A stretch of 64,000 bases of DNA from positions 1-64,000 of IMG/VR virus record IMGVR_UViG_3300030108_003689; one strand, 5' to 3'. The DNA is from a virus. The notes under the pieces were generated by a model. It did not search any database. It saw only the letters and a program-made list of their open reading frames with translations, and had not been told where the DNA came from. Position 1 is the stretch's first letter; every line of letters begins with the position of its first letter. The position numbers and the translations under genes were made by a program. Below, piece after piece: positions 4,592-36,905 of the stretch.

Positions 4592-5422
4592 ATGTATAGA
4601 CCGACTAAGCCGAGTGACCTGAGCCGATTGATTGTAAAGTACGCGACCGAGGGCAAGCTCCAGTGCTTCCGTAAAGTCGAGGAGTCCGAGTACAAAATCT
4701 TGTGCTGGGAGTACGAGATGAATGGAGGCAAAAGTCCTGACTGCCGTCAGTGGGTAAAGCCTGGAGACTTCATCTCTTCGCACATCGTCCGCATGGACGA
4801 TTCATTGTACGGAGACAGGGCCCCATCTTCAGCCAAGGCTGCACTACGGATCATGGCCGAGAGTTGTGACATTGCCAATATTCCAGATTGCATCGAGTGT
4901 GAATCACTCTATCAGGTAGCGTTGCTTCACACTGACCTTGACCGCTGGATTGAGAACCACTCCTTCCCGTGGGCAAGGCGAATGGTATCCGCAATTGGGT
5001 ATGTCAGCGTGGAAGACCTGTTCGAGCGCGAGGACATGACATTCGTTGGAGATAGCAACATCTTCGATGATGACGGAACTTTCGAGAAGTGGTCCCAGCC
5101 ATTGTGGGAAAACTGGAAATCCATCGCGCTCTGCACTGCCCTAAGGGAAGGCAAGGTTGATGACTGGCATGACATTGACCAGCGAATGAAGGGTCTTCAA
5201 AACACTTTCCAAATCAACCAGTGGCAGGCATCAGTCCTAACAGGCCTCTCGAACCATGAGCTTGCTCTTAGTCAAGTCGAGATGCTCCTCAGCCTCTTTG
5301 AAGACTACGAGGCCCGTATCCGACGACAAAGACAGTACGACTCGGAGGGGCCACTGCGGATACCCGAAGCAGTGGTGGGTCAACTGACTTATGTCCGCGA
5401 CTTGTTAGTGAGCCATAACTGA
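4592..5422 (+). CDS. Hypothetical early protein, 276 aa
   Basis: Starts MYRPTKPSDLSR after AAAGGA. An N-terminal domain of about 75 residues (FRKVEESEYKILCWEYE, QWVKPGDFISSHIV) looks beta-rich; the remainder is helical and acidic, with Trp-rich stretches (EKWSQPLWENWKS). No catalytic motif or membrane segment is evident. It is followed by the first copy of the CATACTTGACA motif. The family is not recognised. Confidence 0.82.
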   Translation: MYRPTKPSDLSRLIVKYATEGKLQCFRKVEESEYKILCWEYEMNGGKSPDCRQWVKPGDFISSHIVRMDDSLYGDRAPSSAKAALRIMAESCDIANIPDCIECESLYQVALLHTDLDRWIENHSFPWARRMVSAIGYVSVEDLFEREDMTFVGDSNIFDDDGTFEKWSQPLWENWKSIALCTALREGKVDDWHDIDQRMKGLQNTFQINQWQASVLTGLSNHELALSQVEMLLSLFEDYEARIRRQRQYDSEGPLRIPEAVVGQLTYVRDLLVSHN

Positions 5423-5798: not shown

Positions 5799-5826
5799 AA
5801 TGGTTCAATCCAAAAGGAGCAAACTC

Positions 5827-8022
5827 ATGAGTAAAATCGGTCGGCCTGACAATGGCAAGAACAGGACTGGAACCAAGCGCGACAAGCAAAAGATGCGAGG
5901 CAAAATCAAGAACATCAGCAAAAAGATCTTGAAGCTGTATCCCAACGGCAGCTTCGGAGATGAGCACCTTGACGAGAATATCTGGGCATCGAACGGTGGA
6001 GAACATCCGCACAAAGGCCAGGACTTGATGGAGAGCTACATAGCCCATCAAGCGTTGGCTGGACGGATCTACCAGGATGACGCCTTTCGTCTGATCGAAC
6101 TGGTCAAAGAGGCAAAGTCGTTGGGCGACTTGGTTGATACGATGTACACCAAACGTTGGTACACCTTGAACCGAGATGTGCAGGGCGTTGTACCTAACTT
6201 TCGTTTCGCTCGTGTAGGTCATATAAACTTCTGGGAACACGTAGAATACGGACTCTTGACGCGCCCAACATTGGCGGAGTTCATCATTCACGAGACGAAG
6301 GGTCTCAAAAGGACAGAAGAGAGCTTGGCGGAAGTTGAGGCGGCATTGATGGAGTACGATCACAATGCTGGCCCAATCGGTGCTCGGAATGATTGGGCTC
6401 ATGCGGGTGAAGTGTTCATGGAAAGGATGGACTTGCTGCGACTCAGATCGGACGGAACCCTCTTGAGCGAGGAGCAAGTCCAAGAAGAGCTACTGACTTT
6501 CGACGAAGCGAACGAACGAATGAAGACGCTTAAGTTGTCTTCTTCTGCGGACGAAGCACGGAACAGGATTCAATCAGCGCAGACAGATCATCGGAGGTCT
6601 TACGATAACGATTCTTTCATGCAACGACGCTTCAATCTTGTGAAGGACGATGCCGCAAACCTGAATGCGCCTCAATGCTTGTTTAGTATTTTGAACACCA
6701 GACTGGATAACTTTCTGATTCAACGCCACCCTGCATATCAAGCAGGGTTTCGTAAAGATTGGACGTGGCACCCATCTGTGTGCGACTCAACAAGCAAGCA
6801 TGAAAAGGCGTTTCAATACTTCAAGCAAACCTTGAAGTGCCCTGGCATGTTTGCTGTGCCAACTTGGTGGTATGGCGAGGTCCAGCACATGTACGCTCTA
6901 TCTGTCACTCAGCACTTGACTAAAGACTTCGATGAGCCATTCCCTACGGGATCGTTCAAGAGCGTCATTTCAAGGGCTTCTGGTTGGTACAAACGCCTGG
7001 AAGAATCCAATCCGATTCTTTACGAGGACCACGCCAGAAGATCGATTGAATACATGAGAGATCGTAACTCCGCCGAGGAGTACCCGGAAATGGTTCCGTT
7101 TAAGACGACGTTCATCAATCTGGAGGACGAATCAAATGCAGGTCACCTGATCTACAACAGGAGTCTGAACCAGTTTGGTCAGGTTCGCCAGCACATGGTG
7201 CCTACAATGGCTCATGCTCCTGATGGCAGGCTGGTCGCCTTGGATATTATTTTCCAAAGCGGGTTCTACTTCAGAGAGAGTGACGAAGACAATCCACTTG
7301 GACGCAGGGTGATCTACGGCTTGTACCACGGCTACGTGATCAATCGTGAAGATTGCCCTTCTGGAATGGACTTTATTCGCATTTCGATGGTCTGCCCCTT
7401 CCACATTGATGGTCAATGGTATCCGCATCTTGCTGAGTTTGACGGTCACCTGTGCGAACAGTCTCCGATCATTCCGGTAATTGGCATGATGATTGATGCT
7501 TTGAATGAGCATAAGACGGTAGTTCGAAACTTCACCAGGGCAGAGCGTAAGCGCAGCGTCAAGGTTGGCAAAAGCTCTGGTGTAGGCAAAGTAAGCCCAC
7601 GCCGATATACACGAGTGCAGATGTCCTCAGGTACAACGTCAATACCTCCGATTGAGGATTGTCCACTGATGCGTCTGCCCAAGTGGAAGCTGTCAAAGCG
7701 AGTCCGGTGCCGTAAGCATGAGCGATGCTATGTCCGTGATGGCTCGCTGCCTATCGGAAAGGATCACTTCGATCTGCTTTCTTCTCGTGGCTACACGATC
7801 TACAAAGACAATCTTGAGATCGGTCCACGAGACCTGAAGCGATTGAAGCTTCGTGATGTAGAGTTACCTAATGGATATAGGTGGGTAGCTATTCGAACCA
7901 TCATCGTCGAAGAGTATGAGAAAGGACCAGAAGACGAAGAGATTGTGCCGCTTGTGCTTGTGCCTCAGAACAAAGTACTGAAGGATTCAGCAGACTTTGA
8001 ACTTAGCGCGATCAACAAATAA
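5827..8022 (+). CDS. Large early protein of unknown function, 731 aa
   Basis: The start is the ATG preceded by AAGGAG at seven bases (MSKIGRPDNGKN); an earlier in-frame ATG lies nine codons upstream but has no ribosome site. The first 35 residues are strongly basic (KRDKQKMRGKIKNISKKILK). The middle is helical and aromatic; the last 200 residues include another basic segment (RNFTRAERKRSVKVGK) and a Cys/His pair in RCRKHERCY. I looked for single-subunit RNA polymerase, nuclease and ATPase motifs and found none. It has its own terminator-flanked unit, so it may be important early in infection. Function unknown. Confidence 0.85.
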   Translation: MSKIGRPDNGKNRTGTKRDKQKMRGKIKNISKKILKLYPNGSFGDEHLDENIWASNGGEHPHKGQDLMESYIAHQALAGRIYQDDAFRLIELVKEAKSLGDLVDTMYTKRWYTLNRDVQGVVPNFRFARVGHINFWEHVEYGLLTRPTLAEFIIHETKGLKRTEESLAEVEAALMEYDHNAGPIGARNDWAHAGEVFMERMDLLRLRSDGTLLSEEQVQEELLTFDEANERMKTLKLSSSADEARNRIQSAQTDHRRSYDNDSFMQRRFNLVKDDAANLNAPQCLFSILNTRLDNFLIQRHPAYQAGFRKDWTWHPSVCDSTSKHEKAFQYFKQTLKCPGMFAVPTWWYGEVQHMYALSVTQHLTKDFDEPFPTGSFKSVISRASGWYKRLEESNPILYEDHARRSIEYMRDRNSAEEYPEMVPFKTTFINLEDESNAGHLIYNRSLNQFGQVRQHMVPTMAHAPDGRLVALDIIFQSGFYFRESDEDNPLGRRVIYGLYHGYVINREDCPSGMDFIRISMVCPFHIDGQWYPHLAEFDGHLCEQSPIIPVIGMMIDALNEHKTVVRNFTRAERKRSVKVGKSSGVGKVSPRRYTRVQMSSGTTSIPPIEDCPLMRLPKWKLSKRVRCRKHERCYVRDGSLPIGKDHFDLLSSRGYTIYKDNLEIGPRDLKRLKLRDVELPNGYRWVAIRTIIVEEYEKGPEDEEIVPLVLVPQNKVLKDSADFELSAINK

Positions 8023-9710: not shown

Positions 9711-10061
9711 ATGCAAGCAGAAGACAACAACGACGATTACAACGAAGACTATGAACGCATTGATACGTTTCAGCTTGTGTTCCAGATGACCCAGAACCTG
9801 GGCGGCCTGAGGAAGGGCAACCTTTCGAAGATGGCCTACGTCTACGGAACCAGCCGATCCCGGCTACGTAGCATTCTGAAACGCGAAGCAAAAGCACCTA
9901 CTCTCGATACTTTGGTGTCATGGATCAACAGGGTGTACAGGATGACTGGAATGAAGGTTGTCTTGACGATTACCCCGGATCTAAAAATGCACTACAGCAT
10001 TGTAGACAAGGACAATGTTTCAGTCGATGGCGTGATCGTTCCGCCCAAAAACAGTTTGTAG
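9711..10061 (+). CDS. HTH (Cro/C1-like) regulator, putative
   Basis: A 116-residue protein. Residues about 34-60 (KGNLSKMAYVYGTSRSRLRSILKREAK, with a YGTSRSRL turn) followed by PTLDTLVSWINRVY fit the helix-turn-helix and the P-x-L-x-T-L tail of Cro/C1-type DNA-binding domains. The N-terminus is acidic, and the C-terminus forms strands (MKVVLTITPD, DGVIVPPK). No ribosome site precedes the ATG, and an inverted repeat lies 60 bases upstream. It stands just before the replication genes and is a good candidate for their regulator. The start is uncertain because of the missing ribosome site. Confidence 0.7.
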   Translation: MQAEDNNDDYNEDYERIDTFQLVFQMTQNLGGLRKGNLSKMAYVYGTSRSRLRSILKREAKAPTLDTLVSWINRVYRMTGMKVVLTITPDLKMHYSIVDKDNVSVDGVIVPPKNSL

Positions 10062-10094
10062 CTGATCGTCTGATCGACTACAGAGCAAAGCCCC

Positions 10095-10188
10095 TTAGGG
10101 ATTGATCCCCCTAAATAGTTGGGCTCCTGACTGAGCCCACCGGGTTTCCGGTGGTGCTCTTTTAGGAGCCCGTCAGGAGTCTAACATG
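10095..10188 (+). promoter_or_regulatory. Structured leader with mutually exclusive stems before the primase
   Basis: TTAGGG/CCCTAA pair at 10095-10114. The segment GGGCTCCTGAC at 10121-10131 can pair with three different targets: GAGCCC (10133-10138), AGGAGCCC (10164-10171) and GTCAGGAG (10172-10179). The last contains the AGGAG ribosome site of the primase. The terminator at 10133-10163 competes with the first of these. The layout resembles an attenuator or a translational switch; a ligand is not implied. Confidence 0.6.
10133..10163 (+). terminator. Intrinsic terminator or attenuator before the primase
   Basis: GAGC-CCACCGG pairs with CCGGTGG-T-GCTC around a GTTT loop (eleven pairs, one bulged T) and is followed by TTTT. 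It ends 22 bases before the primase ATG. Confidence 0.65.
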
Positions 10189-12580: not shown

Positions 12581-13953
12581 TGAGTCAAGGAAGAGTAGCT
12601 ATGGGTGGTGGGATGTTCCTCGAGCCCGGAAGTAATAATGAAGAAGATATTTTGAGTAGATTTAAACTGTTGAACCCAGAATATAAGATGGCGGTTGGGC
12701 TGCGGGAGAAGGGTAAGTTTATCGCTTTACCCGATAAGTACATTAACGCATGCCATCGCATTCCACATGAGCACCCCTGGGGCGGAGGTCTTGCGATTCC
12801 GAGGAAGGCTGCGGCACAAATCAATCTCGGATCTTTCGCTGATGTGAGAACAGAGCCACAAGCTGAAAGTCTTAAGTTGGCATCAGGTTTCAGCCTGAGA
12901 GATTATCAACAAGACGCATTAGACGAGTGGGTCAAAAGTGGTGGCGAGGGCGTAATCATTGCACCGTGCGGTGCCGGAAAGACTGCTATCGGACTAACGG
13001 CAGCAACGGTATTCGATACGAAGTGCTTGATCTTGGTTCACACCAACGATCTGGCTGTCCAGTGGATGAATCGATGCAAGTCAATGCTCGGTACGGAGGC
13101 AACGCAGTATGGCGCGGGTAAGAAAGATGACTCGGGACGGATTGTTGTCGCAACTTTCCAGACTCTTGAACGAATGTCATTCACAGAGAGGTACAACTTC
13201 GGGCGTCAGTTCGGACTCTGTATTGTTGATGAAGCACACCACGTTCCAGCGCACACCTTCTGCTCAGTTATGTTCTGTATGCCCGCGCGATACCGACTCG
13301 GACTAACGGCCACGCCGAACAGACCAGATGGCCTAACATCCATTTTGTGGTGGCACTTCGGACAAGCAGTATACGAAATCACTAACGCACAGCTTGCAGG
13401 ATCTGGTCACGTTGTTCCCCCTCGAATCGAGTGGTTCTTTACTGATTTTGCGGGGCCGCTACACCGAGTGGACTGGTCTAAGCTCATCACATTGATGACA
13501 ACGGATGAGGATCGTAATCAAAAGATTATCGATCGTGTCGTCCAGGCTTGTCGCAATAACAGGCAGGTCCTGGTCTTATCTGATCGGGTGGATCATTGTA
13601 TAAAGTTGGCAGAGCAAATCAGCGCACATGACATCATCGCTGAACCACTGGTCGGTAAGATGACTAAGAAACAACGAGCAGAGGTTTTAGATCGTGCGGA
13701 TAAAAGACAAATTCAGGTCGTTTGCGCGACCACGGTTGCTGATGAAGGGCTTGACCTACCGTCTTTGGACACAGTTGTGCTTACAACTCCGACAAAGGCT
13801 ATGGGTCGAATACAACAAAGAATCGGCAGAGTCATGCGACCACACCCTGAAAAACAAGATCCGATCGTTATTGATTGCGTCGATGATATTGGATCAATGC
13901 GCGGTTTGGCTCGAAAAAGAAATAAACTCTATACGCAGATCGGATGTCATTAA
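12577..13953 (+). CDS. SF2 DEAH-box helicase
   Basis: A 458-residue helicase. Motif I is PCGAGKT (130-136), motif II is DEAH (218-221, in LCIVDEAHHVPAH), motif III is GLTATPNRPDG, and the C-terminal motif V/VI region reads TVADEGLDLPSLDTVVL and QRIGRVMRPH. This is the RadD/UvsW/XPB-like group of DNA helicases, used by phages for recombination or origin processing. The start overlaps the previous stop; two consecutive ATG codons (12577, 12580) are possible. A 2-base gap leads to the next small gene. Confidence 0.9.
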   Translation: MMSQGRVAMGGGMFLEPGSNNEEDILSRFKLLNPEYKMAVGLREKGKFIALPDKYINACHRIPHEHPWGGGLAIPRKAAAQINLGSFADVRTEPQAESLKLASGFSLRDYQQDALDEWVKSGGEGVIIAPCGAGKTAIGLTAATVFDTKCLILVHTNDLAVQWMNRCKSMLGTEATQYGAGKKDDSGRIVVATFQTLERMSFTERYNFGRQFGLCIVDEAHHVPAHTFCSVMFCMPARYRLGLTATPNRPDGLTSILWWHFGQAVYEITNAQLAGSGHVVPPRIEWFFTDFAGPLHRVDWSKLITLMTTDEDRNQKIIDRVVQACRNNRQVLVLSDRVDHCIKLAEQISAHDIIAEPLVGKMTKKQRAEVLDRADKRQIQVVCATTVADEGLDLPSLDTVVLTTPTKAMGRIQQRIGRVMRPHPEKQDPIVIDCVDDIGSMRGLARKRNKLYTQIGCH

Positions 13954-16467: not shown

Positions 16468-17124
16468 ATGAGTCTTTTTGAAGAAGTAGAGCGCGCTAAA
16501 AATCCATTCGTTGGCAAAACACTACAAGAAGGAAACAAGCAAGCGACGTTTATCAACCAAACATCGTCACTGCTTAGCATTTTGAATGAAATTATTTCTT
16601 CTGAAAAGTTACCAACGAAGAAGGCAAAGGAGTGCAAGGACTACAGAACTAAGCTGGGCGATTGCTCCTGGCCTCTGCACAACCTTCAAGGAAAGGTGAA
16701 CGAGCAAACCTGGATGTCTATCGTTCAATCAGCAATCAGAGGCATGCTCAAGACCATTCGCAACTCTCAGCCTAATGGTGAGTGGGCGCTGATGGACTAT
16801 GAAGTGAAGATCGATTTTGCACCAGACGGCGTTGAGCGTTTGTATTTGGTGGTCAAGTTTGTAGATGTAGACAACACCGAAGAGCTTCTTTACAGGAACG
16901 GAGTGCCGATTACGACTACTGTAAATGTAAACACAAGCCCAATCGCACCCGAAGTTGTCGAAGCTTTGAGCAGCAAGAACACAGATGATGGTGAGCTTAA
17001 AGAGTTGATCAAGCAACTGGTTGTTGCGATGTCCGCTGGTGCCATTGCAAGCAACGCTCAGACAACAGAAGAAATCGAAACGTACCCAGTACCAGACGAA
17101 GAAAAAGTTGTCTTTGACGATTAA
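16468..17124 (+). CDS. Hypothetical protein, 218 aa
   Basis: Starts MSLFEEVERAKNPFV after AGGAG. An N-terminal helical region is followed by a beta-rich part (WALMDYEVKIDFA, VERLYLVVKFVDVDN, LLYRNGVPITTT), a helical C-terminal segment (ELKELIKQLVVAMSAGAI) and an acidic tail. It sits in the recombination operon, where an accessory of the exonuclease or a DNA-binding factor might be expected, but no family is recognised. Confidence 0.8.
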   Translation: MSLFEEVERAKNPFVGKTLQEGNKQATFINQTSSLLSILNEIISSEKLPTKKAKECKDYRTKLGDCSWPLHNLQGKVNEQTWMSIVQSAIRGMLKTIRNSQPNGEWALMDYEVKIDFAPDGVERLYLVVKFVDVDNTEELLYRNGVPITTTVNVNTSPIAPEVVEALSSKNTDDGELKELIKQLVVAMSAGAIASNAQTTEEIETYPVPDEEKVVFDD

Positions 17125-17803: not shown

Positions 17804-18298
17804 ATGGCTGATCATTCTTTAGATGACATCGTACATTCGATTCAATCTGCGGTTATAGCTGCCACCGACATTGCCGAGAGGCATGAGCTTGATTCAATTA
17901 CGAATCAAGAGTTCTGGGAGTTGAAGACGAATGATTCCGGGGAGCCACTTAATGATGAACATGGAAGGCCCATTTATGTACCTCGTATGGTCGTCATGGA
18001 GATCCCAACATGGGAAGATGGAGTACTGGTACAAAAAAGAGTTCCAGTCCCGCTCCAATCCCTCACGACTGGTCAAAGCCTTCGCGTGGATACGCTTGAG
18101 GTTGAAATGTCAGTCGAGATATCTGGGCTTACGGCGGACAAAAAGAAAGGCAAGTTGATGGTCCGGCCTTGTGCCAACACTCCGTCATGGTTCAAAAAGC
18201 AGAACAATGCTGCTAAGGTAAAGCTGATCTTCAAGGGCAGCGAGCCCCCAGAAGGTTATGCAAGAATCGACGATCAACTAATCAAGCTGCTTCCGTAG
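17804..18298 (+). CDS. DUF2589-like protein 1
   Basis: A 164-residue protein starting MADHSLDDIVHSIQSAV after GGAGACATA. The N-terminal helix is followed by strands (MVVMEIPTWEDGVLV, VPVPLQSL, LEVEMSVEI) and a C-terminal FKGSEPPEGYARIDDQLIKLL. The V-P-V-L-strand pattern and the PPEG turn are shared with the next protein, so I take the two as related members of the DUF2589 group, which is more typical of bacterial genomes. The function is unknown. Confidence 0.65.
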   Translation: MADHSLDDIVHSIQSAVIAATDIAERHELDSITNQEFWELKTNDSGEPLNDEHGRPIYVPRMVVMEIPTWEDGVLVQKRVPVPLQSLTTGQSLRVDTLEVEMSVEISGLTADKKKGKLMVRPCANTPSWFKKQNNAAKVKLIFKGSEPPEGYARIDDQLIKLLP

Positions 18299-18307
18299 GA
18301 GAACATC

Positions 18308-18910
18308 ATGGCAGATTCCGGCCTCGTACAAATGTCATCACAGTTTGGTGGACTTCCAATGGAGCAACTCATTGGTGGACCGCTCAAGGCTGCATGTAAC
18401 GCTCAGACTTTGCTCGCAAAGGCATCAAGTGACTTCATCAAGGATGTCGGTCTCAACGACGACGGAAAGGGTAACTTGTCCGCGCGCACCGTTGACTTTG
18501 GCTTCAACAGGCCGGTTCAAGACGCTGCCGGAAATACCACGATGGAAAAGGTGGATCTTCAGGTTCCACTTCTTGCGATGATCAACACTCCAGCCCTTTC
18601 AGTCAAGGAAGCAGAGGTTCGGTTCACCATGGAGGTCAAGTCCTCCACGTCGAGCAAGACCACGTCAGACAGCAAGGCTGACCTTACAGCCAAGGCTAAG
18701 TACAACGCTGGTCTCTTCTCTTGTGAAGTGACGGTACACGGCTCAGTAGCCAACCACAGTGAGAATAGCCGTAGCAGCGACAACAGCGCCAAGTACGATG
18801 TCAAAGTAGTAGCGCGAGATGACGGTCCTCCAGAAGGTCTCATGAAGGTTCTGGACATGCTTAACGACGCCATTGCGCCGACCCCGGCAGCCGCATCTTC
18901 TAAGAAGTAA
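18308..18910 (+). CDS. DUF2589-family protein 2
   Basis: A 200-residue protein after AGGAGAACATC. LIGGPLKAACNAQTLLAKAS (residues about 21-40), FIKDVGLN, a V-D-F-x-F strand and VDLQVPLLAMINTPALSVKEAEVRFTMEV follow the remembered DUF2589 pattern (I-G-G-P-L-x-A-A, F-I-x-x-V-G, V-P-L-L-x-x-x-x-x-P, x-E-x-x-x-x-F-x-x-x-I). The middle is Ser/Thr/Lys-rich (SSTSSKTTSDSKADL). Paired with the preceding gene, with 9 bases between. Function of the family is not known. A structured noncoding stretch follows. Confidence 0.8.
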   Translation: MADSGLVQMSSQFGGLPMEQLIGGPLKAACNAQTLLAKASSDFIKDVGLNDDGKGNLSARTVDFGFNRPVQDAAGNTTMEKVDLQVPLLAMINTPALSVKEAEVRFTMEVKSSTSSKTTSDSKADLTAKAKYNAGLFSCEVTVHGSVANHSENSRSSDNSAKYDVKVVARDDGPPEGLMKVLDMLNDAIAPTPAAASSKK

Positions 18911-18998
18911 CAACATCCCCTGCGCCCCCCCACCCACATCGCTTGTTCCCATACTCGGGACGTGAGCATGGGCGATTCCTACCGGGTGGGGGGGTGGC

Positions 18999-19011
18999 AG
19001 GCATAATGCCT
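18999..19011. repeat. Short palindrome AGGCATAATGCCT
   Basis: A perfect 13-bp palindrome with a central A lies between the long hairpin and the later stems. The one-base loop makes an RNA hairpin unlikely, so a protein-binding DNA site is the better reading. Confidence 0.35.
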
Positions 19012-19101
19012 ATAGGTCTTAATCCATATAATTGGTGGTGTTGTAAACATTTTGATCTTGGATAGGCTGAGATCAATTTAATCCCGTGGATTAAACCTGT
19101 G

Positions 19102-19139
19102 CCCCATCCAAGTGTCACGACTTGGGTGGGGTTTTTTTT
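19102..19139 (+). terminator. Strong intrinsic terminator
   Basis: CCCCATCCAAGT pairs with ACTTGGGTGGGG (12 pairs, one G-T) around GTCACG, then eight T. It is the strongest terminator in the window and ends the DUF2589 unit. Confidence 0.9.
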
Positions 19140-19147
19140 GTTACACT
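19139..19147 (+). promoter_or_regulatory. Possible extended -10 for a leaderless mRNA
   Basis: TGTTACACT has the TGn-TACACT form of an extended -10. Transcription would begin about six bases later, almost exactly at the ATG of the next gene, which has no ribosome site. No good -35 is present. Confidence 0.3.
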
Positions 19148-19152
19148 ACCGC

Positions 19153-19446
19153 ATGGCTCGATGCGGACGATGTGGATTTTTTAAGTCTTACGAAGGTGTC
19201 AGCAAACAGGCAGGCGTCTGTTTGATGTATCGAGGCCTTGACATTCCTGAGGACGCTCTGTGGGAGCATCGTGAGTGTTCTGAGTACACTCAGAGGATTC
19301 CTGACTGGACGCCTGAGCAGCATTTCGACTTTGAAGTGAAGCGACATGGTGTTGAGCGCAGTTGGCGTGCCAGTAAACGAGCGATGATCTTTTCTTCTGC
19401 GGCATTGATCGTCTCCATCGTGACGCTGATGAGCAAGCTGATTTAG
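19153..19446 (+). CDS. C-tail membrane protein with N-terminal zinc knuckle
   Basis: A 97-residue protein. MARCGRCGFFKSYEG (C4, C7), then C23 and C42, form a likely zinc-binding N-terminal part. A RIPDWTPEQHFDFEV segment follows. The last 20 residues (AMIFSSAALIVSIVTLMSKL) form a single membrane helix, so it would be anchored by its C-terminus with the zinc part in the cytoplasm. The start has no ribosome site but lies directly after a terminator. I have seen similar small bacterial and phage proteins, without a known role. It converges with the first minus-strand lysis gene and overlaps it by four bases. Confidence 0.72.
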   Translation: MARCGRCGFFKSYEGVSKQAGVCLMYRGLDIPEDALWEHRECSEYTQRIPDWTPEQHFDFEVKRHGVERSWRASKRAMIFSSAALIVSIVTLMSKLI

Positions 19447-19949
19447 TTTTTCTCGACGATTTCGAACAACTCGTCAACGCGCTTCTTCATTCGCTTGACC
19501 TTACGCTCGACATCGTCACCATCGAAGTCAGCAGAGATACTGGATGTCTTCTTCTCGATGCCTGCCAGCTTTGTCTTGAGACTTTCAATCTCTGCCTGCA
19601 TGGCAGCACACTTAGCTGCACAAGGAGGGGGCTGCTGGCCCTCGAGACCCTGATTCTGGGACTCGATCTCCAGCTTCTTCATCTCCCGCTCGTGCTTCTG
19701 CTCAGCCCAGTCCCTGTACAGCTTGAACGCCTTAGACCCACCGGCAACGGCCATGCCAGCCAAAGCGATTGCGACCATGGGTGCGTGCTCGCCGCCCAAC
19801 GACTTAGCCGCATTGGCTGCCGCTGTGATATCTGGAGCGATACCGACTGACTCCGATAGTTGTGGCGGATCAGGGCCTACATCGAAGTTTTCTATATCAA
19901 CAGGTTGAGGAGTTGCGACTGGTGCAGGTGTTTCCGCTTGTGATGGCAT
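19443..19949 (-). CDS. Membrane/coiled-coil protein at the end of the late operon
   Basis: A 168-residue protein with an AAGGAA ribosome site. A Pro/Glu-rich N-terminus is followed by one hydrophobic stretch (MVAIALAGMAVAGGSKAF), a charged linker (EQKHEREMKKLEIES), a CAAKC pair, and a coiled coil (IESLKTKLAGIEKK, RKVKRMKKRVDELFEIVEKN). It is the last gene of the minus block. Membrane plus coiled coil suits a lysis accessory (spanin-like) or a membrane-bound virion factor. The family is not recognised. Confidence 0.75.
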   Translation of the reverse strand: MPSQAETPAPVATPQPVDIENFDVGPDPPQLSESVGIAPDITAAANAAKSLGGEHAPMVAIALAGMAVAGGSKAFKLYRDWAEQKHEREMKKLEIESQNQGLEGQQPPPCAAKCAAMQAEIESLKTKLAGIEKKTSSISADFDGDDVERKVKRMKKRVDELFEIVEKN

Positions 19950-26600: not shown

Positions 26601-29600
26601 CTATTGTTCATTGTCGATAGGAGCAGTACGCTCCAGAATTCTTTGTTGTGCTTCATTGCGTCTAATAGCTTCTGCTGACTTCTTAGCGTGTTGTTTATAT
26701 TTCCAGTACGCCAATTTTTTCCAAGTTTGAGGGTGCCAAGCTGAAAAACCTATAGTTCGGCCAATTTCAGTCGGGTAAAATTGGTCAGCATAAACATTAT
26801 ATGTCGAACCGTCTTTGCTTTTGTAGGCTACTCCATACTTCCTGAGCGTAGGAATACTCGCGGTCGTTATTTGATCCGCTCGCTTGACGGCCTCTTTAGC
26901 ACCATCCTTTGCCAATCCTGGCTCTGTTGGGCTGACATACGCTTGAGCTATTCCTGCATCATCGGGAACACTGACACGAATATCCTTCTCCTTGACGAAG
27001 CCGAGAACCTGAAGGGCTCCGATATTTGAAAGAATCGGCTTATCTGGATTCAAAGATTTCAGCGCATGCGTCAAATCCATCAACCCTTCGACAACACCCG
27101 CGTTCGCACGAGATAGCGCCCAAAGGTTGTCTCCCATCCGACCAGTCACTGGAGTTTGCAAGTACTCCATCAAGAATAGATACGCTTTCGTGTTTTTGGC
27201 AACAAAGATGCCTCTCCCAGGCATTTCGATGTTTCGTTCGTTCACTCGTCGCTTTTCTTTATCGTCCCACACGAAACGAATGTTTTCTGGCTCGATGTAC
27301 TCGATGCCCAAAATGTCATGTAGTGTTCCGCCAGTAAACTCCAAATCGAACTCAACAAGCTCTGCTGGAACCTGTAAGGTTGCCCTTTCAAGCGGGAAGC
27401 CAAGACCAGGATCAATGCCGAACGTTACGGCAGCCCCAAGACCTAACTGAGGCGCCAGTCTCGAGAAGACACCAAGCCTAGCTGCTCTGGAAGACTCATC
27501 TCCTCCAGTAAATGGAAGCGCCAAGAAGAGTTCAAGCAACAAGCCAACAGAGTCACCAGTCAGCAAGAATGGAAGCCTGAATCTTTGGCCCATGATTTCG
27601 AACGGTAAAAACGATCGATATCTATCCCATGGAGACAACATCAGGTCTGGGTCCTTGGACTCCGTAGCCTTCAACTGCGTGTTTCTCGCAAACTTAAGCT
27701 GAGTAATCACTCGGTCAGGGTTTTCCAACAATGAAGTGAACAGCAGCTTGTTTGCCTGCGAGAAGTATGTATAGAAAGCGAAATACCGCTTGAAGTAACT
27801 TGCCTCAGCATCACTCAGATCAGAGTAATCCAGCATAATCTTGCGAGTTTTCTTGGCGGCATCGTCTAAAGTGGCACCAGCTTTAAGCTCTCTCACCAAC
27901 ACCTTTATTCTCATGTAGGTGTCAATAGCGACGAATGATTCCCTATAGAACCTATGCGCTTTGCTGAAGATGTTTCCAGGCTTCAGAGACTGAGCCATGC
28001 TCATTCCGAATGCTGCACTCAAAAGCGCACTCTGTGGGCCAAGTGGAGCACCTATTAGGCCAAACATCGCTCCATTGATCCAAGTCGGATTTGCTTGAGT
28101 AAACCGCTCATAGAACTGATCGTATAAATTATTGCTGGCTAAAGCATCAGCAAACGCACTCTTCCAGCCATATCGATCAACAGTGTTCGCCAACATGTCG
28201 GCAGTAATGATTCGGCCATCTGGTAATACCAGCGGCTTTGTACGGGGCCTATGCGAGCCGTCACCGAAAAGTCTGGCCAGTGTTCCTGCTACAAACTGGA
28301 TCTCTACGTCCGCAGCCTCTGCAATGTTTCTGACCAGCGGAGTGACCTCGGAGGCTACCCTGGCGCCTGTTCCTGGTGCTTCAAGAAGGTCTTGTGTCGC
28401 AGCTAAGACGCCTTGTCCGAGGTGAACCTGACTGAGACCACCGATGAATACGCCCATTCCGTAGCCCACCATAGGTAAGCCACCGACACCAATCAAAAGA
28501 CCAGTGTAGAACGTTCTTGGTGATACTAAAAACTCAGCCGCTCTTTGCCAAACCAAAGCCGCATTTGCAATCTGCTCTTTGATTCTTTGAGAGTTTTGCG
28601 TAGACGCATCTTTCAACTCAAGTTGATACTCGGCTCTACCAGTTCTACCCCATGTTTTTTTGAAACGAGCGTTCGGATACGTTTCTTGAGCCCAGCTTTC
28701 AAGCTGATCAACCATGTTCTTAGGCATGATGAACTGCTTGTCACCAATCATAATGATTTCAGCGGTGCCGTCATCAATACGAATACCTGCACGCTTCAGT
28801 ATCTGATCGGCCTCATATTGTGCTGACTTATCAATACGGGTGATAACGTCGGAGTCTGGCCTTTTTGCTGATGGCTTCTCGGTAGGCCCGTACATGTCTT
28901 TCACGGGCTTCTGCGCGATTCTGACCTTTCGTCCAAACTGCAGATCACTGAACCCAGCCACTTCATCGGACTTACTCAGGGTACGATCGATGTAGAACAG
29001 TACTCGATCTACGTACTTGCTCCTACTGATGTTGATTTCACCTTTAAGATCAAGATTGTTTGTTATTGATCTGCGCGACAAGTCGTAACCATTTTCGGCA
29101 AGCTCTCGGGCCAAACCGAACCGAACATCATCGACTTTCAACATGATCATCAGAGCCATCAAGGCTTGATTCAAGTCTGGAGTCTTTGTAGAGTACTTCA
29201 CTCCGAGTTGATCAGCGATCGGCCTCGATACTCCCTCGATGATTTTACCCATCAAGCCCAGTTTCTTGCTGTACTGGAATACTTGTCGTGGCGTCTGCGC
29301 TTCTGGTGCGCGTCGGATCTTTTTAGGTGTTCCGATATCCAGCAGACCCTTGATGTCACCTCTGTAGAACTTTTGATATATATCGATCACTAAAGGGTCG
29401 TTCAAATCGAATTGAGTGGCTTGCTTGATAGCAAGAATCTTTTCGAAGACATTGGTAGAAAAAGACTCAACATACTGCTTCTTTTCTCGCAGTCCTTCGT
29501 GAATCACCTGGATAGCATCAGCAATTGTTGCTCGATCGGTTGTGGTGAACTCTGCGGCGTCCTGAGCGTACTTCAATCGTTCATTGAAAATACGAAGCTG

Positions 29601-32600
29601 ATTGATAGCCTCTCTCTCCCTAGGGGTCATTCCATACGGACCATCAAGCAGGTCCTGCATGAGGGCAATCTTCCTACCAATCTCTTGAAGGGTTACGCCA
29701 CCACCTGGGGACATCTTGCCGAGGGCTGCATCGTCCAAATCAAACGGATCATAGGTTGTGGGAATAGGCTTTCCAGCCTCCTCCGCTTCCGCGACTCTAG
29801 CTGCGGCCTTCGCCTCCATTTTTTGGATAGAGCCATCCAAAGTTCCAACAATTTCAAAAAGCGAGCGAACGCTGGAAAGGTTCACTCTTGGTGTGTGTAA
29901 AGAAACATCATATTGGAAGAAATCATACAGAGTATCGATAGCCTTCAACTCTGGATCATTAGCAAGCCTAATAATCGACTTACCGGCATTCATGATCATT
30001 CGCCCATAACCGTCAAGAATTTCCACCATATTCGGGTCGGTGGTCATTTCTGAGATTTCTTTCTTCTTGCGCGTCGTCTCAGCTATTTTCCTAAGAGCCT
30101 CTCCTATGCCTTCGAATTGTTCCCTGTTTTCGAAGAACGATGCCATCCTCATTAAGTATCCAGGATGAGTCGTGTTCCTGCTACGCCTGTTTAATGGGGT
30201 CGCAACAATGTCAGTTACAACATTTCTGATCGTGTTGTATTCATCGACCGAAATCAGTCTCAAGTTGACATCGGGATCGAGCAAAGAGAATGGGATCAAA
30301 TCTGCTTCAGGTTGGTTACCGATTTCTTGTATCAGTGTTTTCAATCCCGCCTGAGCACGATCGTCCAAGACAATGAACCCGGTTTCTTGAACGCGCTTGT
30401 TTATCTGCTCATTTGACTCATTGAAAAATCTAGCAGCAAATCGATTCCTGTAAGAAAGAATATCAACGTCCGTGACACCATCCGGGATGGTGTCGGGGTC
30501 AGCCAACGAGTTCAACCCACTACGATTTGGCTGTTCAATTTGCTTGGTGATTGTTTCCGGGTCCATCCCAAGGGCATCAATAAATCTGTTTGTAGACTTA
30601 TCTGTGATGGTTTTGAGGATCGCAACAGGGACGTGGTATCGACCAGAGCCAACAGGCGTCATTGGCTTATTGGCCAAGCTTTTCCTAAACGCAGTGTTTT
30701 TGATCAATGCATATACTTCGAGGCCAGCATCAATCGCGTCATACTCTCTGGGATCGTATGAGCGCTCTAATACGCGCTGTCTTTCGCCCGTGTTTAGATC
30801 AGTCTCAAAGCGAATCCTGTTTTGCTTCCGATCACCGAGAAGGGAGTGCATGGTCTCTGAGTCAAAACCAAGCTCCATTGCAACTCGCTTACGAGCCTTG
30901 TCTGCATCCGGGCTATACAAAATTCGCTCTTGTTGGGTAGCCCTCAGCTTGGTGTACTTAGGCCGCTTATTTAAGGCAGCATTTGTAATTGCTTGAACGT
31001 TACGCCTATCTTTCGGTGCTTCACCAAACTCAAGGTCCCAATACTGGCGAACCTCATTGGGAAGAAGCCCAGGCTTCTTTCGAATGCGAGACCAAAGATT
31101 GTGCAGAGAAATCCAAAGCTCGTCCATCAGCCTTCTTACGAAGCCGTTTGGATTGTCTCGAACCCTCCGGTAGTACCTCCAGGCCTCCGCAAATTGCTCA
31201 TGACCCAGATCGGTGAGTGATCGAGTTCCGTCATCCATCAACTCATTATCGAAGTAGCGGAAAAGCTTATCCGTAAACTCTCTGCCCATGAGCGTGGCCA
31301 TGAAGTGGCCGTTCTCGTGCCAAAGGGTGTCAAGATCGCCCTTCTCGAACAGGTTGATGATTGCCTTGCGAGTACGCTGATCGTACTCGAAGTAACCGAG
31401 TGGCACGCCCTCCTTACGCTGGAACCTTGTGTCTGGATCACCGTCTTCGACTAAACGAAGCACTGTGGGCTCAACAGGATCTTTCGTTTGATCTTCTCCA
31501 AGCCCTGTTCTTCGGAGGTCTTTGTTTCCAGGATTCAGGAGGTCTGATTCTGCTCCTGCCGCATCTCTTGCTCTTCCCGAATCAGGTCTAAGTTCTCCGG
31601 TTCCACTGGAGTATCGGTCGAGAGCCACATTTTCGTTATCAGTTGCTCTTCTTCCGTATCTTCTGATGAGTTTGTCAAGGTTGTCGCGGTCGACAGACGC
31701 TCGATGATACCAGGGAGTATTCTCAAATTTTTCATTTTGTATGCTCCATCCTTTCGGAATTACTCGATCTTCTACTTTTACTCTTTCTTTATGTCGTTTG
31801 ATTTCACCAAAAAAGTCTGAATATGCTGCGGCATCGAATACGTAATTTACCCCATCTTGGGTCGCCATGACAAATGTTTGTTGACCGTCGGGCATAACCG
31901 CGTACTTGATACCGTACCGGAACATGCCGAACTTGCCTTCGCTTACGTATGCGCCTACTGCTGGATCGTCATACCCAAGAGCTTGCTTCAGAATCACTGC
32001 AAGCGTGTCGTGACCGACCTCTTGTCCGCTATTGATGACCCATGTTTCCCAATGAAGTCGACCGATGCTTCCTTCACCTTCTCGACCAGCGAGTCGATAT
32101 GCCTCATCGATGCTGCCCAACAGCAGGCTTTCGATGGCCTCATACAAGATTGCGCCACGACCACCCGATAAAACATCTGCCAATCCTCGGGACGCAGAAT
32201 ATGGCCTCGGGTTTTTGAGCCACTTCTTCCAAGACGCATCCGATGTGGGCTTTGAAAAGCCCTCGTAGAGATCCATTTGAGTGCCATCTCTGCGAAGAAC
32301 TCCATCACCGAGAAGGTTCTCAGCCTGACCCCAGAAGTGATTCGCTTGAATGCGGTCAATAACGATGACATCAGTTCGGCCAGCAGCCAACAACATGAAG
32401 GAGATTACCTTGTTGTCGATACCAGACGATTGATAGATTTGATGGAACAATCGTCGAGCTTGCTGACCACTAATGGATTGATCAAGCAAGATAGAGTGCC
32501 ATGCAGCCAGCTTGGTTTGTCCTGCATACGGATGGCCCTCGGGCAAAATTTCGCTGGATTGAGACAGAAAGTTTTTACCAAATGCCCGTAGGTTTGCCGC

Positions 32601-35600
32601 AGCCGGATTACCTGCACCCTCAATTCTTAAGGCAGGGGCGAAACCAACTAATTTACCAAACTCATCAGGTGTTATCTTTTCCTCACGAAGTAGTGCCGCC
32701 GCGTCTTTTCGGGCGTCAACCATAGTCTCCGTGATTTTTTCATTAGCTTTTTTATTATCAGCCAAAGCAGGCAAAAGCTGAGTTTTAAATCTATCTGCTT
32801 GATCTTCGTCGATTACGTTTCGATTCAACAAATCATTGATTGTATCAGCATCGCGTCCGACGAATAGTGTGTGTGTGGCCTGATCGATATCGCCATCAGC
32901 AAGCATCTTGTCTGCCGCACGCTGCCGATGAACGCCACCAACCCATACGTCGTACTCGAGCATCATTTTCGCGTCGAAAGTACCTTCGACCGCAGACCTA
33001 ATGAAACCATCCAAGTTCTTTTGAAAGACGCTTGCCGGAGGTGAGTTGAGGAAGATGTCTAAGAAGGCGCTTTCATGCGGGAACGCAGACAGGCTTCGAC
33101 TTAGAATCGCCCAAGCGAGAAGTTGGGCGGTGACATTTGCCTCAGCAATCCCGGTGTTGTACAGATTGCCGAGACCCTCAACCAACTCCATACCGCCATC
33201 GGCGCGCTTTTTTTGCTCTGGTGTTAGCCTGTTCAACTCCGCTGCAAGGCTCTCAGGATTAGCATATGTTCTGAGTTTCAGCGGTGGCCGAAGAACCTGC
33301 TTAGTATCGGTGATGCCTCCCCACCATTGATTCCAATCCTCGTCGGACAAGATGGGATTACGACCATCTAATAATTCGGTGTGATTGTCCGCCTTTTCGA
33401 ATGATGCTGCCGCATTTTTGGTATTCGTTCCTTTTGGTACAGGCTTTTCTTTGAATTTTTTCCTGCTGGGGTTCTTTCTCGTGAGAGGATCAGGCACACC
33501 GGAGTGCGTCTTGGCTTGGTACTTCTTTTTCTCGGCAGCCAGTTTTTTCCGGTCTACTTTAACAACAGCGGGCTTCTCAACTTTCATTTGAGCTTTGAAG
33601 AGTCTGTCTTTAAGTTCTAAGCGCTCGGCGTCTGAAAAATCTTCGAGATTTGATTTACCAAATTTCTTTTCTAAATCAGCCTTGAAGACCGGGTCAGTTT
33701 CTTCAATATTCAAGTCGTCCATGATCGCACGAATGCGACTCAATGAGTTGTCTCGACCGAGTGGTTGACTGAAAGCATTCTCAGGCGTTTCATCAACTTC
33801 TTCCAGGCCCTTGCCCATGAATCGAGCGCCAGGACGAGCAGGGCGGTTTGTGGTAATCCTCAGACCCCCTAGAACCTCTGCTGCTGAACGATAAGGGGTA
33901 TCTGTTGCGTCTGCGATACGAGTGGCCTGAGCCTCAAGCATAGACATAAATCGAGCGGCATCGTCGGCCTTGATTCGACCGGCCTGAACAAGATCATTCA
34001 CATCAGCCAACAGAGCTTTATATTCGGGGCTGTTCTTCAATACGATGATGTCGTTCGTATCTACTGCTCGGGTAATTTTTTCAGACTGTCGTCGAACATA
34101 TTTACTGACTTGTGCCGCTTCTTGAAATGCAGCAAAAACCTCATCTGGATTTCTTCCAGTTGCGATAAGAATGTCGCTAAACAACTCACGCTCAGCAGCA
34201 TCCATCCTATCAAGTGGGTTTGGACCCTCATTAAGCTCAGCTTGCGCGTTTTGCTTGAGCAGCTTGTGGTTGGCTACTGTGGGGTCTTCTGTTCTATCGA
34301 AATCAGTGTTTTGAAGTAATCGACGCTTGGTAAGAGCAGCCCGATTCGCAGGGTGCTCAGACATAAAGACTTTACCAGCAGGGATCGCGTTGGCTCCAAC
34401 TCTACCCACGTTTCCTACTGCACGACCGATATACTTTTCGAGGTTCAGCATATCTAAACCGAACCCAAGGTTTTGAGCCAAGTTGAACTCTGGGCTCCCT
34501 CGCTCGAAGCCCTTAGCGAGCATAAGCTCTTCGTAGCCAACCTGGAATCCACCAGTGCCAGACTTTCGTCGAGCCCTGATCCGGCTTTGTAGCGTTGATT
34601 CAGGGTTTCTAATCCCCAATCCTTCGAGTAAATCAACACCGGCTGGTGTACCCACTACTGTTGGCAAGCCCAGCGTTTCCACTACAGGCAGAAGGGTGTC
34701 TGGGAAATCTTTGAAATCGACCGCAACGTCAGTTTCTGCGGCTACGGTTGGTATGAGTGCTGCCCACTGAAGAAGCTCACCAAAAAGAGTTGGAGCGTAT
34801 TGGAGACTACCGCCCTTTTTGAGCATCAAAGATTGCATCGTCCGTTGAATTTCACGTGTAGATTTTCGACCGACCTTTTCTTCGAGGAACTTTGCGTTAT
34901 CTCTTGCCCATTTTTCGACTTGGTCTGTCGTTGGCATTTGATAAATGCCTGCGCTGTTTGACTGCCTGAATTGATTGACAAACCGCAAAGGCATCGAGTT
35001 CAATAGCTGCTGTACTGCTGCTTTATTATCGCCCTCTCGAATAGCCTCAAGTGTAGCGTCAATCTTCGGATTGCCGTGGTACTCTTTGCCGCCCATGGCC
35101 ATGTCGAGCTTTACGAATTCAATAAACGCATCAACGTTAGGCTGTTCACCTTTGATGTCTGGATTCAACTCATTGTACGATTGCTCATAAAGCCAAGATT
35201 TCACCCACAGCTTCTTATTTTTATCTGAGGGATTGTGAACGCCTAAATCGATATCCTCAAAATATTGAATTGCATCCCAATCTTTATACTCGGGCTCTCT
35301 CTTTCGTCTTGCCCTTGTAAGTTGTTCACTGAGGTCTTTAATCTCTTCTTCTCTTGCTAAATTTGCCGCTTCTCGAAACTCAGGAGTTTCCTTCAGTTCG
35401 GTTTGAATTTCTGCAAGAACTTCAGCAAACTGTTGACCAGCGCTTTTTTCTCCAGATGTGTCAATACCGAGTGCTACTTCAACAGCAGTCTGTTCCAAAT
35501 CTGTGAGCTTGTCTTTTCCAGAAGCATATGAATGAGATAAAATTGAAGCTAAAGCTCTTTTACTACGCAATTGCGATAAAGCGGTTCCACCAATTGCGGC

Positions 35601-36905
35601 TGCTTGAACGGTTTCGATAAAATTGGGATCATTTTTTGCCCAATCAATAAAGTTGCTCAAAACTTCGGAATCGCCAATCTTGTCGGCAACACCAAAAGCT
35701 TCTGCGGCAGCAACAGACCTCGATATTAATGCAGCACGAGCCTCAGCCGATGAAACCTCTAGCTGATCTGCAATGTCGTTTACGGTGCCGAAAGCACTCA
35801 ACATGCCTTTGGCCAAGTCATAGCTGAACTGACCAGCCCTACGAGCGCCTGCTATATCGGCTTCAGGTCCACCTTCGTAGCTGTGCCGTTCTGCGTCTAG
35901 AATCTTTACACCCATGGCCCCCATGGTGTGTCCACTTGCATAGCCTACGACGCCACCAACTAAACCACCAAACACCCTGCCTTTAGTTTTGAAAAGCTTT
36001 TCACCAAATGCAGCACCACTTTTTCCGAGCGCTTTCGCTTGCTTATACCCAAGCACGGCCCCAGCAGCGTTGGCAGCGATGTCTACGTCTTCGTGAGTAA
36101 TCTTGAAGTCTAAAGCTTCACCTGGGAGATCGTATGTTCGTCGCTCCTCCTCAAATGGAGTGTACGTGAACTCGAACAATTCCGTCCCTTCTTCGTCGGC
36201 CTTCTTCTGAAGCTCTACTCTGACCTCTTCTTCGGTCTTTCCTTCTCCCCTAAGCTTCTCGGCCAACTCCTTATTCGTGTACTGAATTGATCGCGACTGA
36301 ACCAGTTGCTCGGCGTCGATCAACTGCTCTGGACGAATGCCTTTGAAAAATCCAATGAAGCTATCAAGGTATGTCTCTTCTGACTCAAGCAAGGCCATTT
36401 CTGCGGCCTCATGTACCTGATACATGTAGGCAGTAGGCGCGTCTTTTAAAAGACGAGAGGTGTTGAACCCAGTTGCGTCACCAGCCAGCACCATATTGGG
36501 TTTTGATTTTTCTACTGTTTCATTGATCTCGTCTTCGATGATCTGATCGATGTCTACAGTGACTGGGATCTCTCCCCTTTCTTTCTGCGCTTCAAGCTCC
36601 TTCCTTCTGGTGTCTGAGCCTTCTTTGAGTGCTTCCCGCAGAGCGATCCGCCAGTTGGTTGTCGCCAGTTCCGAGGCGTCCTCGGACTCATAAAGAGGAG
36701 CCTCAACGGTTGTTTGAATCGGTACAGTTTTGCTTGCTTTTAGTTTAAGCTGCTCTTCGCCTGTGGAGTCGACAACAACGTCTTCAATGGCCTGAGCTTC
36801 GATCGGGTCATCAATCGGCTCGAACTCAAGCTCTATCTCTTGTTCGGGCTCGGGCTCGGGCTCAGGTTCAACCTTGTCTTCTTCGATTTCTTCAGGCTCA
36901 GCCAC
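26601..36905 (-). CDS. Giant virion-associated protein, 3434 aa
   Basis: GTG start with GGAG upstream. The first 45 residues are a Glu/Pro repeat (PEPEPEPEPE). A glycine-zipper-like part near residues 285-335 (AAGAVLGYKQAKALGKS, GGLVGGVVGYASGH) may insert into membranes. Residues 1863-1867 are HENGH, an HExxH metallopeptidase signature within LWHENGHFMATLMGREF. Around 1600-1640 a Gly/His-rich domain (RLHWETWVINSGQEVGHDTL) is present. Near 3040 an aromatic helical segment (FYTYFSQANKLLF) resembles the C-terminal parts of very large phage proteins. Position and size suit a protein ejected into the host. I found no RNA polymerase motifs, so it is not an N4-type polymerase. Confidence 0.85.
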   Translation of the reverse strand: MAEPEEIEEDKVEPEPEPEPEQEIELEFEPIDDPIEAQAIEDVVVDSTGEEQLKLKASKTVPIQTTVEAPLYESEDASELATTNWRIALREALKEGSDTRRKELEAQKERGEIPVTVDIDQIIEDEINETVEKSKPNMVLAGDATGFNTSRLLKDAPTAYMYQVHEAAEMALLESEETYLDSFIGFFKGIRPEQLIDAEQLVQSRSIQYTNKELAEKLRGEGKTEEEVRVELQKKADEEGTELFEFTYTPFEEERRTYDLPGEALDFKITHEDVDIAANAAGAVLGYKQAKALGKSGAAFGEKLFKTKGRVFGGLVGGVVGYASGHTMGAMGVKILDAERHSYEGGPEADIAGARRAGQFSYDLAKGMLSAFGTVNDIADQLEVSSAEARAALISRSVAAAEAFGVADKIGDSEVLSNFIDWAKNDPNFIETVQAAAIGGTALSQLRSKRALASILSHSYASGKDKLTDLEQTAVEVALGIDTSGEKSAGQQFAEVLAEIQTELKETPEFREAANLAREEEIKDLSEQLTRARRKREPEYKDWDAIQYFEDIDLGVHNPSDKNKKLWVKSWLYEQSYNELNPDIKGEQPNVDAFIEFVKLDMAMGGKEYHGNPKIDATLEAIREGDNKAAVQQLLNSMPLRFVNQFRQSNSAGIYQMPTTDQVEKWARDNAKFLEEKVGRKSTREIQRTMQSLMLKKGGSLQYAPTLFGELLQWAALIPTVAAETDVAVDFKDFPDTLLPVVETLGLPTVVGTPAGVDLLEGLGIRNPESTLQSRIRARRKSGTGGFQVGYEELMLAKGFERGSPEFNLAQNLGFGLDMLNLEKYIGRAVGNVGRVGANAIPAGKVFMSEHPANRAALTKRRLLQNTDFDRTEDPTVANHKLLKQNAQAELNEGPNPLDRMDAAERELFSDILIATGRNPDEVFAAFQEAAQVSKYVRRQSEKITRAVDTNDIIVLKNSPEYKALLADVNDLVQAGRIKADDAARFMSMLEAQATRIADATDTPYRSAAEVLGGLRITTNRPARPGARFMGKGLEEVDETPENAFSQPLGRDNSLSRIRAIMDDLNIEETDPVFKADLEKKFGKSNLEDFSDAERLELKDRLFKAQMKVEKPAVVKVDRKKLAAEKKKYQAKTHSGVPDPLTRKNPSRKKFKEKPVPKGTNTKNAAASFEKADNHTELLDGRNPILSDEDWNQWWGGITDTKQVLRPPLKLRTYANPESLAAELNRLTPEQKKRADGGMELVEGLGNLYNTGIAEANVTAQLLAWAILSRSLSAFPHESAFLDIFLNSPPASVFQKNLDGFIRSAVEGTFDAKMMLEYDVWVGGVHRQRAADKMLADGDIDQATHTLFVGRDADTINDLLNRNVIDEDQADRFKTQLLPALADNKKANEKITETMVDARKDAAALLREEKITPDEFGKLVGFAPALRIEGAGNPAAANLRAFGKNFLSQSSEILPEGHPYAGQTKLAAWHSILLDQSISGQQARRLFHQIYQSSGIDNKVISFMLLAAGRTDVIVIDRIQANHFWGQAENLLGDGVLRRDGTQMDLYEGFSKPTSDASWKKWLKNPRPYSASRGLADVLSGGRGAILYEAIESLLLGSIDEAYRLAGREGEGSIGRLHWETWVINSGQEVGHDTLAVILKQALGYDDPAVGAYVSEGKFGMFRYGIKYAVMPDGQQTFVMATQDGVNYVFDAAAYSDFFGEIKRHKERVKVEDRVIPKGWSIQNEKFENTPWYHRASVDRDNLDKLIRRYGRRATDNENVALDRYSSGTGELRPDSGRARDAAGAESDLLNPGNKDLRRTGLGEDQTKDPVEPTVLRLVEDGDPDTRFQRKEGVPLGYFEYDQRTRKAIINLFEKGDLDTLWHENGHFMATLMGREFTDKLFRYFDNELMDDGTRSLTDLGHEQFAEAWRYYRRVRDNPNGFVRRLMDELWISLHNLWSRIRKKPGLLPNEVRQYWDLEFGEAPKDRRNVQAITNAALNKRPKYTKLRATQQERILYSPDADKARKRVAMELGFDSETMHSLLGDRKQNRIRFETDLNTGERQRVLERSYDPREYDAIDAGLEVYALIKNTAFRKSLANKPMTPVGSGRYHVPVAILKTITDKSTNRFIDALGMDPETITKQIEQPNRSGLNSLADPDTIPDGVTDVDILSYRNRFAARFFNESNEQINKRVQETGFIVLDDRAQAGLKTLIQEIGNQPEADLIPFSLLDPDVNLRLISVDEYNTIRNVVTDIVATPLNRRSRNTTHPGYLMRMASFFENREQFEGIGEALRKIAETTRKKKEISEMTTDPNMVEILDGYGRMIMNAGKSIIRLANDPELKAIDTLYDFFQYDVSLHTPRVNLSSVRSLFEIVGTLDGSIQKMEAKAAARVAEAEEAGKPIPTTYDPFDLDDAALGKMSPGGGVTLQEIGRKIALMQDLLDGPYGMTPREREAINQLRIFNERLKYAQDAAEFTTTDRATIADAIQVIHEGLREKKQYVESFSTNVFEKILAIKQATQFDLNDPLVIDIYQKFYRGDIKGLLDIGTPKKIRRAPEAQTPRQVFQYSKKLGLMGKIIEGVSRPIADQLGVKYSTKTPDLNQALMALMIMLKVDDVRFGLARELAENGYDLSRRSITNNLDLKGEINISRSKYVDRVLFYIDRTLSKSDEVAGFSDLQFGRKVRIAQKPVKDMYGPTEKPSAKRPDSDVITRIDKSAQYEADQILKRAGIRIDDGTAEIIMIGDKQFIMPKNMVDQLESWAQETYPNARFKKTWGRTGRAEYQLELKDASTQNSQRIKEQIANAALVWQRAAEFLVSPRTFYTGLLIGVGGLPMVGYGMGVFIGGLSQVHLGQGVLAATQDLLEAPGTGARVASEVTPLVRNIAEAADVEIQFVAGTLARLFGDGSHRPRTKPLVLPDGRIITADMLANTVDRYGWKSAFADALASNNLYDQFYERFTQANPTWINGAMFGLIGAPLGPQSALLSAAFGMSMAQSLKPGNIFSKAHRFYRESFVAIDTYMRIKVLVRELKAGATLDDAAKKTRKIMLDYSDLSDAEASYFKRYFAFYTYFSQANKLLFTSLLENPDRVITQLKFARNTQLKATESKDPDLMLSPWDRYRSFLPFEIMGQRFRLPFLLTGDSVGLLLELFLALPFTGGDESSRAARLGVFSRLAPQLGLGAAVTFGIDPGLGFPLERATLQVPAELVEFDLEFTGGTLHDILGIEYIEPENIRFVWDDKEKRRVNERNIEMPGRGIFVAKNTKAYLFLMEYLQTPVTGRMGDNLWALSRANAGVVEGLMDLTHALKSLNPDKPILSNIGALQVLGFVKEKDIRVSVPDDAGIAQAYVSPTEPGLAKDGAKEAVKRADQITTASIPTLRKYGVAYKSKDGSTYNVYADQFYPTEIGRTIGFSAWHPQTWKKLAYWKYKQHAKKSAEAIRRNEAQQRILERTAPIDNEQ

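Follow-up and report, generated by a model that had tools for sequence, protein, structure and literature searches.

What is encoded in a gene-free stretch of 230 nucleotides where two viral operons converge, and does it act as one RNA, as several, or as DNA? The question is raised by positions 18911-19140 of a 64,000-nucleotide stretch of DNA (here, the window) from a 74.6-kb virus record, IMGVR_UViG_3300030108_003689. A preliminary description of these letters had proposed a single structured RNA behind a DUF2589 gene pair.

A gene-free stretch where two operons converge

Rightward genes dominate the region from 1 to 18.9 kb and encode a VapE-domain helicase/primase, a second helicase, YqaJ, RecT, a tRNA-Asn, and the DUF2589 pair. 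Leftward genes run from 64 to 19.4 kb and encode a T4-type terminase, a major head protein, an M23 peptidase, and an endolysin-like protein. Judging from this gene content, the rightward operon is presumably early and the leftward operon late, and we use these labels below. The stretch lies where the two converge and where operon direction and GC skew switch (Table 1). As first described, it is gene free, with a DUF2589 stop codon at 18910 and the next open reading frame (ORF) at 19153, and both genes upstream match Pfam PF11655 (E = 7.9e-16 and 9e-44). The product of the downstream ORF is a small CxxC protein with a hydrophobic C terminus; the ORF starts 13 nt past the T-run of a strong terminator, which leaves scant space for a promoter.

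No DNA-level match to the window was found in cultured phages, among which its DUF2589, terminase, capsid, and primase proteins have merely distant relatives. The source virus is uncultured and probably marine, and its relatives appear, from their metagenome numbers, to be largely marine. Two large proteins, one late (3434 aa; 26601-36905, − strand) and one early (740 aa; 5800-8022, + strand), gave no Pfam or PHROG match of note. N4-like hairpin promoters were considered and dropped because the 3434-aa protein had no supporting match.

The stretch comprises two RNA modules

The + strand of 18911-19140 folds at −98.6 kcal/mol, whereas 200 dinucleotide shuffles average −73.7 ± 4.4 kcal/mol; this corresponds to z = −5.7, and no shuffle folded as well. 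When 556 consecutive 230-nt segments covering both strands of the 64 kb were ranked by folding energy beyond shuffles (8 shuffles per segment), it came second. The strong structure originally claimed is thus real; first place goes to 9941-10170 (+). That top-ranking segment contains a nested hairpin, GGGCUCCUGAC..GGAGCCCGUCAGGAG, at 10094-10170 (+), just 5′ of an ORF at 10186.

An outer stem with nested arms is present, as had been proposed; however, it consists of 17 pairs and one bulge and closes only 83 bases (18919-19001), and the stretch is therefore made of two side-by-side structures, which we call E1 and E2 (about 19012-19139). The two touching perfect hairpins (19052-19076 and 19077-19095, zero spacing) and the terminator (19101-19132, with eight T at 19132-19139) are present as well. 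In relatives, E1 occurs without E2 (e.g., L003 and L036) and E2 without E1 (e.g., L067), contrary to the idea of a single 230-nt RNA. We conclude that the stretch holds two RNA modules.

Rfam 15 returned only two tRNAs in the window at the gathering threshold, and the best sub-threshold matches reached merely E = 4, such that neither setting assigned the stretch to a family. No earlier description of E1 or E2 was found in the open-access literature, the only literature covered. E1 and E2 each constitute a family that Rfam lacks, though a description outside the open-access papers searched is possible.

Table 1. Coordinates of E1, E2, and neighboring genes in the window
Feature	Position	Strand	Basis or remark
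First DUF2589 gene of the pair	17804-18298		Pfam PF11655
Second DUF2589 gene, final coding gene of the early operon	18308-18910	+	Pfam PF11655, E = 9e-44
E1, class A: stem, asymmetric internal loop, inner hairpin	18919-19001	+	Covariance model, compensatory change
E1 outer stem P1, 5′ strand	18919-18935	+	Fold; pairs with 18984-19001
E1 internal loop, 5′ side, AC	18936-18937	+	AY or GC in relatives
E1 inner hairpin with two alternative folds: P1b AUCG/CGAU plus apical part	18938-18976	+	
E1 internal loop, 3′ side, UCCUACC	18977-18983	+	UCCYRCC in relatives
E1 outer stem P1, 3′ strand	18984-19001	+	Fold, covariation
E2 upstream part: alternative outer helix and variable stretch	19012-19051	+	Weakly supported
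E2 hairpin A, pentaloop AUAGG, G-C closing pair	19052-19076	+	
E2 hairpin B, UUUAAUCC-CGU-GGAUUAAA	19077-19095	+	Abuts hairpin A
E2 intrinsic terminator, conserved octaloop UGUCACGA, eight T	19101-19139	+	
Small ORF, 97 aa	19153-19446	+	No Pfam match; downstream in only some relatives
Final gene of the converging late operon	19443-19949	−	

Compensatory change identifies the acting strand

We retrieved 80 loci that encode a DUF2589 relative; counting the window's own copy as the 81st, 59 of these 81 loci, which lie in uncultured viral contigs, contain E1. After pattern scans had added contigs, the collection held 51 distinct E1 sequences; distinct E2 sequences numbered 37. In a 44-sequence alignment, 92.1% of E1 pairs were standard versus 41 to 53% with slid partners, with both-side changes in 13 pairs. 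For E2 hairpin A and terminator, the percentages were 97.5% versus 21 to 55%, with both-side changes in 15 of 21 pairs. Because the viruses are related, these counts are not independent events, but the slid controls share the same relatedness. The test of stem conservation in relatives proposed at the outset therefore gave strong compensatory change.

G-U and A-C combinations, scored equally, stood at 63:5 for the E1 stem, 74:5 for the E2 terminator, and 54:13 for hairpin A of E2, always with G-U in the majority. Both modules therefore function as RNA transcribed in the direction of the early genes. Conservation, compensatory change, and a folding strand identical to that of DUF2589 all support the early suggestion that a phage 3′ UTR contains a structured RNA.

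Hairpins that act as DNA (an origin, packaging site, or recombination site) or that remain from a mobile repeat could explain the location at the switch of operon direction and GC skew, as well as the reversed orientation seen in two contigs. However, a DNA-level hairpin would show no one-strand preference for G-U, and the bias found marks RNA on one strand. Furthermore, E1 is present once in all 17 matching contigs among 22 whole contigs, not in the several copies per genome of a mobile repeat, and no repeats were found around E1 or E2. We regard both readings as scarcely credible and reject the mobile-element leftover first considered.

E1 retains an internal loop between exchangeable helices

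The E1 covariance model matches 18915-19007 with 91.2 bits. P1 is GC rich and covaries at 8 of its 16 aligned pairs, and the two inner folds, P2 (CCCAU/AUGGG) and an extended P1b, are about equally supported. Elements of the window's type (class A) keep much sequence, including GCAUGGGCGAU. Those of class B (L231, L235, L255/L260, L299, L301, L303, and L307) have an inner hairpin, and mostly also an outer stem, unlike that of class A; what they share is a stem, AY, a hairpin, UCCYRCC, and then the opposite strand of the stem. The class B elements came from loci fetched via E2 or a late-gene protein, with the E1 motif unused, and these motif-independent loci contained 8 of them, whereas permuted motifs averaged 0.41; the best-scoring permutations overlap the true AY/UCCYRCC motif. 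A scan in which the 5′ dinucleotide was left free yielded 40 distinct E1 sequences, every one with AC, AT, or GC, and the same scan with 5′ gaps of 1 or 3 nt yielded none. L068, detected with the covariance model (E = 0.002) and then read by eye, is a further likely case. Because MAFFT misplaced the loop when classes A and B were mixed, pairs were tabulated in a hand-set register. A core-pattern scan of genome contigs gave 67 matches, and inspection showed that none was laid out like E1. AUUCCUACC had suggested that E1 might be tRNA-like, but this reading was dropped, since the T-arm-like part is missing in class B.

E2 ends in a predicted intrinsic terminator

E2 has the GC stem and immediate U-run of an intrinsic terminator, here a covarying stem of 12 pairs followed by eight T. 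Both sides change in 8 of the 9 pairs of hairpin A, and GUGGAUU of hairpin B is conserved. The alternative outer helix, UUAAUCCA with UGGAUUAA of 19088-19095, maintains its pairing in only some relatives.

Other RNAs precede E2 in a few relatives. In L237 (~12630-12790, + strand) and L241 (~290-450, − strand), a tRNA-like RNA that received no ARAGORN call has the acceptor GGGAAUG/CAUUCCU, the T-arm GCAGGUUCGAUUCCUGU, and an apparent inner pseudoknot, with a weak sub-threshold match to Rfam SpF41 (26.8 bits). In L239 (~4671-4763), the E1 slot 5′ of E2 is occupied by another GC-rich stem (GUCCCCCCGCCC/GGGUGGGGGGAC), whose inner domain also differs.

The modules mark the end of the early operon

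The start of E1 lies a few bases past a stop codon, except in five contigs where tRNA-Asn(GTT) comes immediately before it; a pattern scan for additional tRNA-linked E1 sequences found no further true elements. In L091, L124, L231, and L235, it lies 3′ of a homologue of the gene at 16468, and the E1 copies of L108 and L361 have the opposite orientation and lie 3′ of a late gene, where the converging late operon ends. E1 thus follows the end of the early operon, whichever gene precedes, and the special tie to DUF2589 initially suggested does not hold. Among 99 distinct junctions, 66 carry E1 (2 reversed), 42 carry E2, and 36 carry both, while 12 have a plain terminator-like hairpin alone. Two observations weigh against an operon-end explanation: 15 of the 99 junctions have neither E1, E2, nor a detected terminator, and genes intervene between DUF2589 and E1 in L030 and L046. 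These intervening genes and the ORF straight after the window's terminator indicate that the transcript need not always end there.

The proximity of that ORF to the terminator would suit a riboswitch-like attenuator in which the E1-E2 block controls the downstream gene. However, such control calls for a constant codirectional downstream gene, and in most relatives the gene that comes next is read from the opposite strand. This context largely refutes an attenuator, which we consider extremely unlikely.

E1, with or without E2, might instead be freed as a small RNA that acts in trans. It is compact (about 80 nt), its unpaired pyrimidine-rich loop is conserved, and where it adjoins the CCA of tRNA-Asn, tRNA processing would free it. 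Yet no covariation was seen between the loop and the DUF2589 ribosome-binding site with which it might pair, and the apical loop of class B is not conserved, which makes a trans-acting role rather improbable.

Ordinary early-operon intrinsic termination, with the conserved loops reflecting shared descent only, deserves more weight, although we still judge it unlikely. The GC stem and T-run of E2, the E1 elements of L301, L046, and L255, which lead directly into T-runs, and the plain terminators at some junctions lacking E1 all favor it. However, a U-run follows the stem in only 14 of 45 distinct E1 sequences and is missing from the other 31, as it is from the window's E1. E1 is therefore not a plain terminator, lacking the immediate U-run, and mostly cannot terminate alone. 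Moreover, the 2×7 loop, which termination does not require, is kept despite replaced stems and hairpin.

Discussion

We favor, at a confidence evenly poised between belief and doubt, a reading in which E1 and E2 are operon-end RNA elements that set or protect mRNA 3′ ends, E1 through a recognized internal loop. The U-run of E2 suggests that its terminator would stop early transcription. The long stem of E1, directly behind the last codon or tRNA end, would fix and protect the 3′ end of the upstream RNA, and its loop (5′ AY, 3′ UCCYRCC) would most likely be recognized by a host or phage protein, for example a processing nuclease or an RNA-binding factor. That the loop outlives replacement of the surrounding helices fits a 3′-end element with a loop that a protein binds or cuts. 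Consistent with operon-end elements, the position is constant behind varied last genes, tRNA-Asn, and the late operon (L108 and L361), and plain terminator-like hairpins occur at the 12 junctions noted above, which lack E1 and E2.

A bolder version, to which we assign a small chance, is that the AY/UCCYRCC 2×7 loop is an undescribed RNA working part, either a small self-cleaving ribozyme or the docking site for a dedicated phage 3′-end factor, that sets the ends of mRNA and tRNA-Asn transcripts where operons end, with no need for a U-run. By analogy with T7 and lambda sib, E1 could also be a site of RNase III processing or retroregulation for which the stem-loop-stem shape suffices. An asymmetric internal loop flanked by two helices, an intergenic or operon-end location in a phage, and a long helix within a phage 3′ UTR are all found in E1; nevertheless, its loop sequence is constant while its helices vary, and we consider such a site, defined by shape alone, very unlikely.

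Regulation by structured 3′ UTR RNA has been termed highly unusual in bacteria (PMC2864571). Structured regulatory RNAs at bacterial or phage 3′ ends are seldom described, and E1 and E2, which add two families to those in Rfam, are a well-supported case. E1 places a fixed nine-nucleotide loop between two exchangeable helices, 3′ of messages and of a tRNA, and is a ready construct for studying how phages set RNA ends where operons collide.

Among known systems, the L17 downstream element (RF01708) shows that a bacterial 3′ UTR can also form a structured RNA, and its strand was judged by G-U pairs (PMC2864571); E1 and E2 share both features. Its host genes and structure differ, and the window has no Rfam match beyond its two tRNAs. 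Intrinsic (Rho-independent) terminators resemble the last hairpin and U-run of E2, but E2 adds a conserved octaloop and attached hairpins, and E1 is mostly without a U-run. In lambda sib/tI, a 3′ UTR stem-loop with a terminator controls the upstream phage gene from behind. E1/E2 have a similar arrangement, a proposed likeness of mechanism, but E1 differs in its internal loop of fixed sequence. The T7 RNase III signals, which lie between phage genes, have the same layout as E1, a helix, an asymmetric internal loop, and a helix; they occur in many copies along the genome, whereas E1 is present in a single copy with a fixed loop sequence.
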